From Burkholderia sp. BCC0322 (lineage in GTDB: Bacteria; Pseudomonadota; Gammaproteobacteria; Burkholderiales; Burkholderiaceae), in the NCBI RefSeq assembly GCF_902833045.1, contig NZ_CADFDU010000004.1:310001-374000 (forward strand): 64,000 bases of DNA. Reading direction: 5' to 3'. The notes under the pieces are model-generated. The model searched no databases. It was not told the origin of the DNA and saw only the letters and a list, made by a program, of their open reading frames with translations. Made by a program: the position numbers and the translations under genes. Positions 36,388 to 41,772 of the stretch are shown piece after piece. How positions within the stretch are numbered: position 1 is the stretch's first letter; the number at the start of each line of letters is the position of its first letter.

Positions 36388-36506
36388 GTGCACATGGTGC
36401 GGGCTGCGCGCGCCGCGCGGTATCGGCCAAAAGGATGAAGGGCGCACGGCGCCGGAACACGCTAAAGTGCACGAAATCCGCGCCGCGACCGGCGCGAGGA
36501 GCGCAC

Positions 36507-37301
36507 ATGCACCGCGTCACCCATTACCGACGAACCGGCGAAGGCATCGAGGCAATCAGCCTCGAATCCGATCGCGCGTTTCCGCGCCACGCGCACGACG
36601 AATTCGGGGTCGGCGTGATCGTCAGCGGCGCGCACCGGTCGTGGAGCGGCCGCGGGCAGGTCGACGCACTGGCCGGCGACGCGATCATGGTCAACCCGGG
36701 CGAGATGCACGACGGCTCGCCGATCGAGGCCGGCACGGGCCGGCGCTGGCGGATGCTGTACCTCGCGCCCGCGCTGGTCGCGGGCGTCGCGGCCGAAGAA
36801 GGGCTCGGCGGGGTCGAACTGGCGCACCCGGCCGTGCGCGATGCGCGGCTCGCGGCCGCCGTCGGCCGGCTGCATGCACGTATCGTCGCGGGGGAATCCC
36901 AGCCGCTCGCACGCGACGAAGCGCTCGTGATGCTCGTCGCCGGGCTACTCGCCCGGCACGCGAGCCGCACGCTGCCGCCGGCGGGCGTCGCACCGGCGAT
37001 CCGCATCGCCCGGGAACGGCTCGACGCGGCGCCGGCCGCCCCCGTTTCGCTCGCCGAGCTGGCCGACCTGAGCGGCGTCAGCCGCTTCCAGCTGCTGCGC
37101 GGGTTTGCCCGCGAACTCGGCATCACGCCGCACGCCTACCTGATCCAGTCGCGTGCGCGGCTGGCGCGCGCGCTGCTCGCCAGTGGCCTGCCGATCGCCG
37201 ATGCCGCAGCCGAAGCCGGCTTTGCCGACCAGAGCCATCTGACACGTGCGTTCGCGCGCCAGTTCGGGATCACGCCCGGGCGGTTCACGCAGGCCGTTTG
37301 A
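36507..37301 (+). CDS. AraC-family transcriptional regulator
   Basis: A 264-residue AraC protein with an N-terminal cupin effector domain (FPRHAHDEFGVGVIVSG, GDAIMVNPGEMHDG) and a C-terminal double helix-turn-helix (SLAELADLSGVSRFQLLRGF; IADAAAEAGFADQSHLTRAF). GAGGAG precedes the ATG at 36507. It is transcribed away from the MoaF/SDR pair across 119 bp that contain GTGCAC twice. It may control that pair, or the EamA exporter about 200 bp downstream. Confidence 0.88.
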   Translation: MHRVTHYRRTGEGIEAISLESDRAFPRHAHDEFGVGVIVSGAHRSWSGRGQVDALAGDAIMVNPGEMHDGSPIEAGTGRRWRMLYLAPALVAGVAAEEGLGGVELAHPAVRDARLAAAVGRLHARIVAGESQPLARDEALVMLVAGLLARHASRTLPPAGVAPAIRIARERLDAAPAAPVSLAELADLSGVSRFQLLRGFARELGITPHAYLIQSRARLARALLASGLPIADAAAEAGFADQSHLTRAFARQFGITPGRFTQAV

Positions 37302-38673: not shown

Positions 38674-39222
38674 ATGAACAGGAAGGAAGCCAAAACAAGA
38701 ATCGCGGTGCTGCTGTCCGCGGGAACGAGGAAGGCCGACGCACTGGCCGAACTGTCCGGACAGGGACTCAAGGATCGCGTGCTCGCGCACCTGATCGCGT
38801 CGCGCCCCGATCCCGAACGCTGCCGCCAGAACAAGCTGCATATCCGGATCCTGGTCGCGCTCGGTATCGCCCAGCTCGCGATCAGCCTCATGCTCGCGTA
38901 CTACTTCTTCGCAACGGGCGCCGCCAACGGCCTCGTGCTGGTGTTCCTTGCGTTGACCGTCCCGCTGTCGCTGCTGTTCATCTGGGGCTTTGCGACCCAT
39001 CGTGTCGGCGCGTACCACGCGTTCATCCTGCTGTCGCTGCTGCAGTTGCCGAAGACCATCGCCGAGCTCGGACGCGATCCGTCGACCGCACTGCCGAGCC
39101 TCGCGATCACGGTCCTGCTGGTGGGCTATGTCTGGTTCGTCCGCAACCGCCTGTTCCCCGACTACGGCTGGCTTACGCCGCGCAAGGTCGAAGGCCGTTA
39201 CGCGTTCGTCGAGCGCGCCTGA
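38674..39222 (+). CDS. Membrane protein of unknown function (182 residues)
   Basis: A 182-residue protein with a basic N-terminal domain of about 55 residues (helical, RKEAKTRIAVLLSAG) followed by four membrane segments (ILVALGIAQLAISLMLAYYFF; LVLVFLALTVPLSLLFIWGF; HAFILLSLLQLPKTI; LAITVLLVGYVWFV). The C-terminus FPDYGWLTPRKVEGRYAFVE is cytoplasmic or periplasmic. I do not recognise the family. It ends just before a strong bidirectional terminator. Confidence 0.72.
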   Translation: MNRKEAKTRIAVLLSAGTRKADALAELSGQGLKDRVLAHLIASRPDPERCRQNKLHIRILVALGIAQLAISLMLAYYFFATGAANGLVLVFLALTVPLSLLFIWGFATHRVGAYHAFILLSLLQLPKTIAELGRDPSTALPSLAITVLLVGYVWFVRNRLFPDYGWLTPRKVEGRYAFVERA

Positions 39223-39252
39223 CGCCGCCGGCATCGAGCGTCGGCCGCAAAA

Positions 39253-39296
39253 AAAGCGCCGGGCCGCCCCGCAATCGCGGGGCGGCCCGGCGCTTT
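39253..39296. terminator. Strong bidirectional rho-independent terminator
   Basis: A perfect 20-bp stem (AAAGCGCCGGGCCGCCCCGC with its complement) and a 4-nt AATC loop, flanked by an A run on the left and TTT on the right. It separates the rightward membrane protein gene from the leftward entericidin gene and would stop both. Confidence 0.9.
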
Positions 39297-39318
39297 CTGC
39301 ATTCCGGAACCGGCCGGC

Positions 39319-39453
39319 TTACTTGGCTTTTTCAGCCGTGTCGCTGATCGCCTGGCCGCCCTTCGAAATGTCCTGTCCCACGCCGGCGACCGTGTTGCAA
39401 CCGGCAAGCGCGGCGGTTACCAGCAGCAGCATTGCAGCAATCGTACGCGTCAT
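39319..39453 (-). CDS. Entericidin EcnA/B family lipoprotein
   Basis: A 44-residue lipoprotein: signal MTRTIAAMLLLVTAALAGC with an LAGC lipobox, then the family body NTVAGVGQDISKGGQAISD. Entericidins are small membrane lipopeptides of a stress-linked antidote/toxin pair in enterics; single copies like this are common in Burkholderia. The ATG at 39453 has AAGGAG 7 bp upstream. The earlier Met at 39459 is too close to that site. Confidence 0.88.
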   Translation of the reverse strand: MTRTIAAMLLLVTAALAGCNTVAGVGQDISKGGQAISDTAEKAK

Positions 39454-39624
39454 TCTCATTCTCCTTGAAATCAACAAGCCCGACGGGCGAATCGTTTGCG
39501 GCGTGGTGCCCGGCAAGATGCAGGGCACGGGGCCTGACCAGATTATACGGAGACGAACGCGGCACGCCAGTACGAATCCGTCGAGTGTCACGTGCGCCAC
39601 ACTGCCCAATCGGGCAGATTTTCC

Positions 39625-39668
39625 TTGACTTCACTGCGCCACGAACTAATATACGCACCGCGTATATT
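39625..39668 (+). promoter_or_regulatory. pyrB-like promoter with overlapping perfect palindrome
   Basis: TTGACT (39625-39630), a 16-bp spacer and TAATAT (39647-39652) form a strong sigma-70 promoter. A perfect 9+9 bp palindrome, AATATACGC-ACC-GCGTATATT (39648-39668), covers the -10 and the start site. A bound dimer would block transcription. The gene that follows encodes a protein with its own helix-turn-helix domain. Confidence 0.7.
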
Positions 39669-39686
39669 TTCCGTCAGGAGCCGCCG

Positions 39687-40982
39687 ATGACCGTTCCCCA
39701 GCAAGCCTTCCTCCGCGACGCCATGCGCCGCCTCAACATGACGCGTGAAGCGTTCGCCAATCGCATCGGCGTCAGCCGGCGCGCGCTCGACACCTGGCTG
39801 CTGCCTGACGACTCGCAGGAATCGCGCGGGATGCCGGAGATCGTCGAGCGCTTCGTGTCGGAAATCGTCGAGCGCTCGGTACCGGAAGGTGGAGGCTATA
39901 CGCAAAGCGTAGATAACCAGGGTCTCGCCAAGCAGTTCTTTTTCGAAGGCAAGCCGCAACTGCTGTCGGTCGACCAGTTCTCGCGGGAATCGGTCGAAGC
40001 GCTGTTTCGCGTGGCCGACGTGATGCAGCCGATCGCGCGCCGCCACAAGATTTCGCGCGTGCTGGAAGGCGCGGTGCTCGGCAACCTGTTCTTCGAGGCC
40101 AGCACGCGTACGCGCGTGTCGTTCGGTGCCGCCTTCTGCCGGCTCGGCGGTTCGGTGTGCGACACGACGGGCTTCACGTTCTCGTCGATGGCCAAGGGCG
40201 AATCGATCTACGACACGAGCCGCGTGATGGCCGGCTACGTCGACGCACTCGTGATCCGCCATCCGGAGAAAGGCTCGGTGGCCGAGTTCGCGCGCGCGAC
40301 CAACCTGCCCGTGATCAACGGCGGCGACGGCCCCGGCGAGCACCCGAGCCAGGCGCTGCTCGATCTCTACACGATCCAGCGCGAGTTCTCGCGGCTCGGC
40401 AAGATCGTCGACGGCGCGCACATCGCGCTGGTCGGCGACCTCAAATACGGCCGCACCGTGCACTCGCTCGTCAAACTGCTCGCGCTGTACCGCGGGCTCA
40501 AGTTCACGCTCGTGTCGCCGCCGACGCTCGAGATGCCGGCCTACATCGTCGATCAGATCGCGACGAACGGCCACGTGATCGAGCAGACGACCGACCTCGC
40601 GGCCGGCCTGCGCGGCGCGGACGTCGTGTATGCGACGCGGATCCAGAAGGAGCGCTTCACCGACGAGTCGTTCGAAGGCTACACGCCGGATTTCCAGATC
40701 AACCAGGCGCTCGTCGATACGGTGTGCAAACCGGACACGCTGATCATGCACCCGCTGCCGCGCGACAGCCGGCCCGGCGCGAACGACCTGTCGGTCGACC
40801 TGAACCGCGACCCGCGCCTCGCGATCTTCCGCCAGACCGACAACGGCATTCCGGTGCGGATGGCGATCTTCGCGGTACTGCTCGGCGTCGAGAACCTCGT
40901 CCAGCATTCGATGCGCGACGCGACGTGGCGCCCGCCGGCGTATCTCGGGCCGGAGGACGCGGTGTTTCACGGGGTCGATTAA
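39687..40982 (+). CDS. pyrB: Aspartate carbamoyltransferase with N-terminal helix-turn-helix domain
   Basis: A 431-residue protein, about 120 residues longer than the E. coli catalytic chain. Residues about 7-62 look like an HTH domain (LNMTREAFANRIGVSRRALDTW), and the enzyme follows from about 75. Carbamoyl-phosphate and aspartate sites are intact: STRTR (139-143), GPGEHPSQALLDL (215-226), LVGDLKYGRTVHSL (248-261) and HPLPR (355-359). It should condense carbamoyl phosphate with aspartate for pyrimidine synthesis. No pyrI or dihydroorotase gene is adjacent. AGGAG lies upstream of the ATG. The palindrome on its promoter suggests autoregulation by the HTH domain. Confidence 0.9.
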   Translation: MTVPQQAFLRDAMRRLNMTREAFANRIGVSRRALDTWLLPDDSQESRGMPEIVERFVSEIVERSVPEGGGYTQSVDNQGLAKQFFFEGKPQLLSVDQFSRESVEALFRVADVMQPIARRHKISRVLEGAVLGNLFFEASTRTRVSFGAAFCRLGGSVCDTTGFTFSSMAKGESIYDTSRVMAGYVDALVIRHPEKGSVAEFARATNLPVINGGDGPGEHPSQALLDLYTIQREFSRLGKIVDGAHIALVGDLKYGRTVHSLVKLLALYRGLKFTLVSPPTLEMPAYIVDQIATNGHVIEQTTDLAAGLRGADVVYATRIQKERFTDESFEGYTPDFQINQALVDTVCKPDTLIMHPLPRDSRPGANDLSVDLNRDPRLAIFRQTDNGIPVRMAIFAVLLGVENLVQHSMRDATWRPPAYLGPEDAVFHGVD

Positions 40983-41040
40983 GACCGAGTAATCGAGGCG
41001 CTGCCCGTCGGGCGCCCCCGGCTGGGCGTCTCGCCCGACA

Positions 41041-41073
41041 AAAAGCGCGCCGCTTGCCCGGCGCGTTTTTTTT
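41041..41073 (+). terminator. Rho-independent terminator after pyrB
   Basis: A CGCGCC/GGCGCG stem is followed by a run of eight T, with an A run on the left side as well. It ends the carbamoyltransferase transcript and could also terminate the leftward toxin-antitoxin unit. Confidence 0.9.
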
Positions 41074-41104
41074 CATGTGCGCCGAACGATTTGGCGACCG
41101 ACGG

Positions 41105-41524
41105 TTACGCCGCCCACGGATCGATCACCCGAAGCCCCATCGCCTCGAACGGCGCGACGTCGCGCGTCGCGACGATCAAGCCGTTCGCCTCCGCGGTCGC
41201 GGCAATGTAGCCGTCGGCCGGCGCAATCGCGTTGCCCGCGGCGCGGGCCCGCGCGCGAATGCTCGCGTACGCTTTGCTTGCCGCATCGTCGAACGGCAGG
41301 ATCCGGCTTCGAAACACCGGCATGACACGATGCTCGATGCTTTGATGCAGCCAGTCCCGCCTGCGCCCTGCCGGCAACATCGCGACACCGAACCGCATTT
41401 CGGCGAGGCTGATCGCGGCCAGAAACAGTGTTTCAACATTCTGGGCGTCGAGCCACGTGATGACGGCCGCGCTCGGCTCGCGCCGCAGCGGCTCGGAAAT
41501 GACGTTGGTATCAACAAGGATCAT
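41105..41524 (-). CDS. PIN-domain toxin (FitB/VapC-like ribonuclease)
   Basis: A 139-residue PIN domain with the acidic residues in place: MILVDTNVISE (D5), SLAEMRFG (E), PADGYIAATA (D) and VATRDVAPFE (D). It should be a Mg2+-dependent ribonuclease that blocks translation when unopposed. Its ATG overlaps the antitoxin stop (ATGA at 41524-41521), so antitoxin is made first. FitB is closest by length and partner type. Confidence 0.9.
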   Translation of the reverse strand: MILVDTNVISEPLRREPSAAVITWLDAQNVETLFLAAISLAEMRFGVAMLPAGRRRDWLHQSIEHRVMPVFRSRILPFDDAASKAYASIRARARAAGNAIAPADGYIAATAEANGLIVATRDVAPFEAMGLRVIDPWAA

Positions 41525-41760
41525 TCGAAGCTCATCGGATCGGTTGGCGTCTTGTCGCGCGGGACGTCGAGATCGACACCGCCTGCCTCCTGCCCGATTT
41601 CCGCCAGCAGCGTGCCAAGCTTGAGACGCCCACCCGGCAGAACGGCCTGCTCGAGGATGTCGCGCACCTCGGCTTCGGTGCTGCGCCCATGCTGGGCCGC
41701 GCGGATCCGAAGGGCACGATGGACCTCGTCGGGCAAATTTCGAACGGTGATCACCGGCAT
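41521..41760 (-). CDS. Ribbon-helix-helix antitoxin (FitA/VapB-like)
   Basis: A 79-residue protein. The N-terminal ribbon-helix-helix (MPVITVRNLPDEVHRALRIRA) binds DNA and is followed by a C-terminal toxin-binding tail (GGVDLDVPRDKTPTDPMSFE). I start it at 41760, since GGAG is 6 bp upstream. Autoregulation with the toxin through the inverted repeat at 41773-41799 is expected. Confidence 0.88.
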   Translation of the reverse strand: MPVITVRNLPDEVHRALRIRAAQHGRSTEAEVRDILEQAVLPGGRLKLGTLLAEIGQEAGGVDLDVPRDKTPTDPMSFE

Positions 41761-41772
41761 GATGCACTCCAT

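Follow-up and report, generated by a model that had tools for sequence, protein, structure and literature searches.

Aspartate carbamoyltransferase (ATCase) is a textbook allosteric enzyme. In E. coli, the PyrB-PyrI form (c6r6) is built of two trimers joined through regulatory dimers, as set out in part of a review of the transcarbamylases (PMC4581275). The terms 'DNA-binding' and 'helix-turn-helix' are absent from the text of that review as far as term counts reach, and a search of the open-access literature found no description of an ATCase with a DNA-binding domain of its own. Here we describe an ATCase with a predicted helix-turn-helix (HTH)-like head, HTH-ATCase, which is encoded in a 64-kb stretch of DNA from Burkholderia sp. 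BCC0322 that is referred to below as the window.

Among metabolic enzymes that act on genes, PutA (trifunctional proline utilization A) combines an N-terminal DNA-binding domain with the role of an autogenous repressor, as an excerpt of its description states (PMC5293562). HTH-ATCase is like PutA in that a DNA-binding domain appears to be fused to a metabolic enzyme and that a conserved putative operator at its own promoter co-occurs with the HTH. PutA, however, is a flavoenzyme with an RHH domain and a put regulon, whereas HTH-ATCase has an HTH-like domain, apparently concerns its own gene only, and has a second putative operator inside its own coding sequence. A different case is PepA of E. 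coli, described in a section of PMC6245113 as a hexameric trigger enzyme at carAB, where about 230 bp of DNA wraps one hexamer. PepA is an unrelated enzyme that controls a carbamoyl-phosphate gene, but it has no domain fusion and acts on a gene other than its own.

Auxiliary operators of the lac repressor type pair one site at the promoter with one inside the coding sequence of the target gene. HTH-ATCase has the same combination of promoter and intragenic sites, except that the intragenic site lies in the gene of the regulator-enzyme itself. It shares its catalytic family with PyrB, but the regulatory chain PyrI (PF01948) was found in none of the eight genomes searched (7 of 14 control genomes being positive), and in its place the catalytic chain bears an HTH-like head. 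In its way of working, HTH-ATCase may thus be likened to the autogenous enzyme-repressors; what would be new is the enzyme concerned and the presence of an operator within the codons of its linker.

The HTH-ATCase gene and its catalytic domain

The features of the locus are collected in Table 1. An earlier note on this DNA had placed the feature at 39625..39900; the promoter and a palindrome do lie there, but the coding sequence runs on to 40982. Just downstream of it on the minus strand, the FitA-like antitoxin gene adjoins a PIN-domain gene (41105-41772 together), and these two likely form a toxin-antitoxin pair.

TABLE 1 Features of the HTH-ATCase locus and neighbouring genes, in positions of the window
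Feature	Position	Strand	Basis or remark
AraC-like ORF	36435-37301		recognised by eye
Entericidin-like small lipoprotein gene	39322-39456	-	divergent from the ATCase promoter
-35 hexamer TTGACT	39625..39630	+	promoter scan; at most of 80 loci, TTGACTT also noted by eye ahead of O1
-10 hexamer TAATAT, spacer 16	39647..39652	+	promoter scan; overlapped by O1
O1, perfect palindrome, putative promoter operator	39648..39668	+	core 39650-39666, TATACGC-ACC-GCGTATA
AGGAG, likely ribosome-binding site	39676..39680	+	read from sequence
CDS of HTH-ATCase (P0001)	39687..40982	+	ATG at 39687; 431 aa plus stop
HTH-like domain, residues 1-62	39687..39872	+	weak profile matches, stand-alone relatives, predicted helices
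Variable linker, residues 63-87	39873..39947	+	between HTH-like head and ATCase domain
O2, TATACGCAAAGCGTAGA, putative intragenic second operator, codons for YTQSVD	39897..39913	+	genome pattern search, codon conservation
ATCase catalytic domains, residues 92-399	39960..40883	+	profile matches and alignment to plant ATCase
CP-loop FTFSSMAKGE, residues 163-172	40173..40202	+	alignment with plant ATCase
FitA-like RHH antitoxin gene	41521-41772	-	profile search

The protein is matched from end to end by NCBIfam PRK11891 (NF008853, aspartate carbamoyltransferase; residues 1-431, 893 bits against a cut-off of 560), and TIGR00670 is likewise above its cut-off (297.7 against 236.95 bits). Within the catalytic part, OTCace_N (residues 92-231, E 5e-43, 147 bits) and OTCace (residues 243-397, E 2.5e-28, 99.6 bits) both exceed theirs. 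The best PDB sequence match is the Arabidopsis ATCase 6YPO (E 4e-72), with which STRTR, KGE, RH, HPSQ, TRIQKERF and HPLPR align. We take these to be the catalytic motifs of ATCases; judged by them, the catalytic motifs appear intact, as do the ligand sites. The HTH-ATCase of the window and its B. lata counterpart are identical (100%, rounded), which suggests that the strain stands near the B. cepacia complex. Older work on the forms of ATCase in B. cepacia reportedly describes a chain of about 47 kDa.

A second, canonical ATCase with about 33% identity to HTH-ATCase is also present in Burkholderia, and ATCase duplication is mentioned for B. thailandensis in a passage of PMC3966863. The pyrB of a Burkholderia that is changed by root exudate, according to an excerpt of PMC10061817, may be either of the two. 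In three of 12 genomes (G083, G087 and G1124), HTH-ATCase is the only ATCase found besides a distant OTCase-like match, so that the pathway probably depends on it in these genomes.

All 80 named loci have the CP-loop, as do 40 of 40 others of family f1; in one set of HTH-less relatives, it occurs in 4 of 7. F165 of HTH-ATCase aligns with Phe161 of the Arabidopsis enzyme, and the Ser-Ser of the loop is also common to both. In Arabidopsis, the CP-loop recognises UMP and Phe161 is needed for UMP inhibition. The plant enzyme differs, however, in being without a DNA-binding domain, and UMP binding by HTH-ATCase is a guess from the likeness of the loops. It may be added that this plant-like loop (F-S-S-x-A-K-G-E) occurs here in bacterial ATCases, although in the plant ATCase paper it is described as exclusive to plants.

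The HTH-like head

The earlier note had read an HTH-like domain of about 60 residues at the N-terminus, a view upheld by the PRK11891 match, by weak profile matches, by stand-alone relatives and by predicted helices. When HTH profiles were run on the N-terminus, Pfam HTH_3 weakly matched residues 9-34 in the first 81 aa (E 0.0034; 17.8 bits, below the gathering score of 23) and a PHROG transcriptional regulator matched at E 2e-4, a result that comes out in favour of the domain. A stand-alone small HTH-like protein, read from locus L244, is 53% identical to the head over 57 aa, and further stand-alone HTH proteins from other genera align with it. AlphaFold places helices at residues 3-16, 20-27, 31-37 and 49-63, with a mean pLDDT of 66-83 for residues 1-40; elsewhere the model is poor (mean pLDDT 48.5), and the alignment used for it, of 21 close relatives, was shallow. 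When the heads of 14 sequences from several genera are aligned, 30 of 71 columns are invariant. A search of PDB with a profile of the head returned four unrelated matches at E 0.17 or worse, and among the matches listed by Foldseek for the whole AlphaFold model, the best 50 are all ATCases. These lines of evidence, weak but consistent, point to a DNA-binding domain fused to a metabolic enzyme.

A palindrome over the promoter

As the earlier note had it, a perfect palindrome overlaps the -10 hexamer of a TTGACT/TAATAT promoter. This site, O1, reads AATATACGC-ACC-GCGTATATT and nothing else in the 64 kb of the window matches it at up to three mismatches (shuffle mean 0.00). The promoter was recovered by a scan of positions 39450-41100, which gave two promoter-like sites against a shuffle mean of 0.1. 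The ATG of HTH-ATCase lies 18 nt past O1, and the transcript should start inside the palindrome.

An operator that covers the -10 and the start point occupies a position typical of repression. The location of O1 over the -10 therefore favours repression over activation. A protein that binds the sites but mainly activates, or that switches with carbamoyl phosphate, aspartate or UMP, would suit the ligand sites, which are intact by motif; given the overlap of O1 with the -10 and the expected start, we consider it very unlikely.

A second site in the linker codons

The strongest part of the case for self-regulation is a site that the earlier note overlooked. O2 sits in the linker between the HTH and the enzyme, with its centre 247 bp from that of O1, and the next-best match to the site pattern in the window has three mismatches. 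Compared position by position along the coding sequence, O2 is, of 1,274 positions, the one most similar to the O1 of the gene: it shares 12.66 of 14 bases, where the mean is 3.41 and the runner-up reaches 9.11. The core of O2, ACGCN3GCG, is intact in 126 of 131 distinct coding sequences and has one mismatch in the other five, one of which (L199) was counted on a neighbouring stretch, its true O2 likewise being one off.

The frequency of TQS residues in the linker might suggest that O2 is simply a conserved peptide (YTQSV) and no DNA site. Its codon choice, however, is extreme: Val is written GTA at O2 in 118 of the 131 sequences, whereas in the rest of these genes GTA makes up 3.3% of Val codons, and Gln is written CAA in 112, compared with 11.6% of Gln codons. 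The five YTQSV codons form the gene's top window for synonymous conservation, with an excess identity of 0.46 (mean over codons 0.14; next window 0.39). The peptide, moreover, varies to H, R and A at O2 positions. Changes of Q to H and S to R touch only the N3 spacer, V to A (GCA, 11/131) affects an outer base of an arm, and T to A (GCG, 3/131) breaks the core. The peptide reading is accordingly very hard to credit, and O2 appears to be kept at the DNA level, by rare codons, while the surrounding linker drifts.

Action of the two sites in RNA, as a hairpin or through pairing of leader and linker, is just as improbable. Read from the sequence, O2 could fold into a stem of 5 bp closed by a 3-nt loop. 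The expected transcript, however, begins downstream of the left O1 arm, which lies in the -10; the letters are kept and not pairing alone; and no RNA family reaches its gathering score in Rfam over 39000-41500. The relocated second sites described below also sit in promoter regions.

Across loci, the O1-O2 spacing ranges from about 235 to 281 bp, with modes at 247 (L191 being one locus with this value) and 258-260 and four values of 279-281. Helical phasing was considered and set aside: the modes are suggestive, yet no period stands out among these loci, which are related and were counted with their kinship included. A third operator was rejected as well. In 80 loci (1.02 Mb) there are 64 further matches at up to three mismatches, of which 56 lie between +934 and +940, within the codons of the active-site residues YATRIQ; these are taken as codon coincidence because the window itself has four mismatches there.

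Conservation and loss of the site pair

All 65 genomes of the genus contain a full-length homologue. An N-terminal query matches 189 of 329 genomes of the family, in 11 of 25 genera; the weak matches in g11 and g16 are, where they can be located, short stand-alone HTH proteins, so that nine genera are left with the fusion. Across the order, a more distant query finds the fusion in 21 of 399 genomes, which belong to families f1, f4, f5, f8, f271 and f272, and it was found in none of the 368 other genomes of a class sample. It also occurs on Variovorax and Comamonas plasmids, and the one annotated copy there is named simply aspartate carbamoyltransferase.

The sites were compared in 146 loci with an intact HTH (141 distinct, all related), that is, 142 loci and four of f272, excluding re-fetches of the same genes as well as L004-L033, which do enter the codon counts. 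The palindrome that the earlier note had seen in one promoter recurs upstream of the other HTH-ATCase genes: with mismatches counted out of 14 bases, O1 is present at up to two in 145 loci and at up to three in all 146, which span six families of the order, and it disappears together with the HTH. In the linker, the core ACGCN3GCG is exact at 129 of the 146 loci, and 137 have it with no more than one mismatch, a count that includes L267 by a chance match (its full site has six mismatches).

Where the linker site is missing, a second site is often found in the promoter. Such a site, at up to three mismatches, is present in five of the nine loci without a linker site against five of the 137 with one, L267 being among the latter (Fisher p 5e-5, uncorrected for kinship). 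It lies 30 bp from O1 in L239, 31 bp in the Comamonas locus L249 and 45-46 bp in L266, L268 and L269. Of the other four loci without a linker site, L248 (Variovorax) and L250 have a weaker second promoter site, with four mismatches, 32 bp on, and in L258 and L261 no second promoter site was seen. The pair of sites thus appears to be mostly kept, although the second site moves between linker and promoter.

The promoter of L255 (G1433) offers a separate observation. This locus has three sites: the promoter holds two, at a distance of 18 bp, and the third is in the linker. It is perhaps a step between the linker and promoter arrangements.

Loss has occurred in genus g647, whose genomes are only 0.7-0.8 Mb. 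The catalytic domain is kept in all eight loci at 69-71% identity, whereas the head is down to 26-41% identity in seven, with the conserved Arg and Asp gone, and is missing in one. Both sites are gone in 8 of 8, the best operator match having 5-7 mismatches. As g647 is one AT-rich clade (GC of these loci 26-33%), this is probably a single event. Another small genome, G083 (1.2 Mb), has kept the head and both sites. In 27 distinct HTH-less relatives (L202-L221, L223-L225 and L227-L230), no site at up to three mismatches was found between 200 bp upstream of the open frame and the STRT motif; the best matches, in L214 and L225, have four. Sites and HTH are present or absent together.

Rarity of the sites and the case for a separate regulator

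A whole-genome pattern search at up to one mismatch was made in 13 Burkholderia genomes and eight genomes of other families. O1 was found in 13 and O2 in 12 of the Burkholderia genomes, four of which (G005, G049, G059 and G062) hold one extra site each. Among the other eight, G072 holds the O1 of its own fusion, four have no site at all, and G068 and G070 (one off) and G071 (exact to the pattern) have one site each, no fusion being found in these three. Within about 1-1.5 kb, none of the seven extra sites lies beside an ATCase or an HTH motif. O1 and O2 are nearly unique in the genomes searched. A wider regulon was considered and rejected, the extra sites in Burkholderia genomes being about at the level of a reversed-pattern control. 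The site in G071 (L129, 1222-1238) lies in a small, 68% complete genome.

These counts bear on the possibility that a separate trans-acting regulator binds both palindromes, the fused HTH being a vestige or an aid to oligomerisation. The earlier note had held that no separate regulator gene lies nearby, which is not quite so: the AraC-like ORF and the FitA-like antitoxin gene (Table 1) are within about 3 kb. The sites, on the other hand, are nearly confined to the HTH-ATCase gene, and they are absent, at up to three mismatches, from the 27 HTH-less relatives and lost with the HTH in g647. The invariant columns of the head also speak against a vestige. No conserved neighbourhood of HTH-ATCase was found between genera when window ORFs, picked mechanically, were compared with 46 Paraburkholderia/Trinickia loci: five upstream ORFs match in 0/46, and two downstream ORFs in 8/46 and 4/46. 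A separate regulator is in our judgement very unlikely.

A proposed mechanism

Our preferred reading, to which we give a probability of roughly 0.83, is that HTH-ATCase would be an active ATCase and a repressor of its own gene, pairs of HTH heads binding O1 and O2. That the enzyme might directly control its own gene had been proposed in the earlier note; the proposal gains from the weak HTH support and from a palindrome that recurs at every intact-HTH locus and is lost with the HTH, and of its two alternatives, repression is favoured over activation.

On this reading, paired HTH heads of an ATCase oligomer would bind O1, over the -10 and the expected start point, and shut the promoter, while the same oligomer would also bind O2, which lies within the codons of the linker about 247 bp further on. 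Two catalytic trimers joined via their HTH heads would present three HTH pairs, enough for two operators, a stoichiometry that we infer. Joint occupancy could take the form of a loop, of adjacent cooperative binding or of a roadblock. The long distance between O1 and O2 suggests a loop, and the variants with a second site at 30-46 bp suggest adjacent cooperative binding; since the O1-O2 spacing is without clear phasing, looping is only the likelier of these two. Binding would presumably be controlled by a ligand of the catalytic site. UMP is the first guess, followed by carbamoyl phosphate and aspartate, and the guess that it is a co-repressor comes from the Phe and Ser-Ser that the CP-loop has in common with plant ATCase. 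The picture as a whole, in which the oligomer loops its own gene shut through an operator in the domain-joining codons and an active-site ligand (UMP or the substrates) sets catalysis and transcription in one polypeptide, is tentative, and we hold it at slightly below even odds.

Many Burkholderiales appear to have enzyme and gene control united in a single chain, and in some of their genomes this is the sole ATCase found. The locus may thereby offer a compact system for how an enzyme becomes a regulator, with paired operators, a second site that moves and joint loss in small genomes.

A stand-alone relative of the head has a palindrome of its own. In L247 (G1145), just upstream of position 1995, ATATCCC-N5-GGGATAT lies over a TAATAT-like -10. 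The small HTH family may therefore be autoregulated generally, and the fusion may have inherited that habit.
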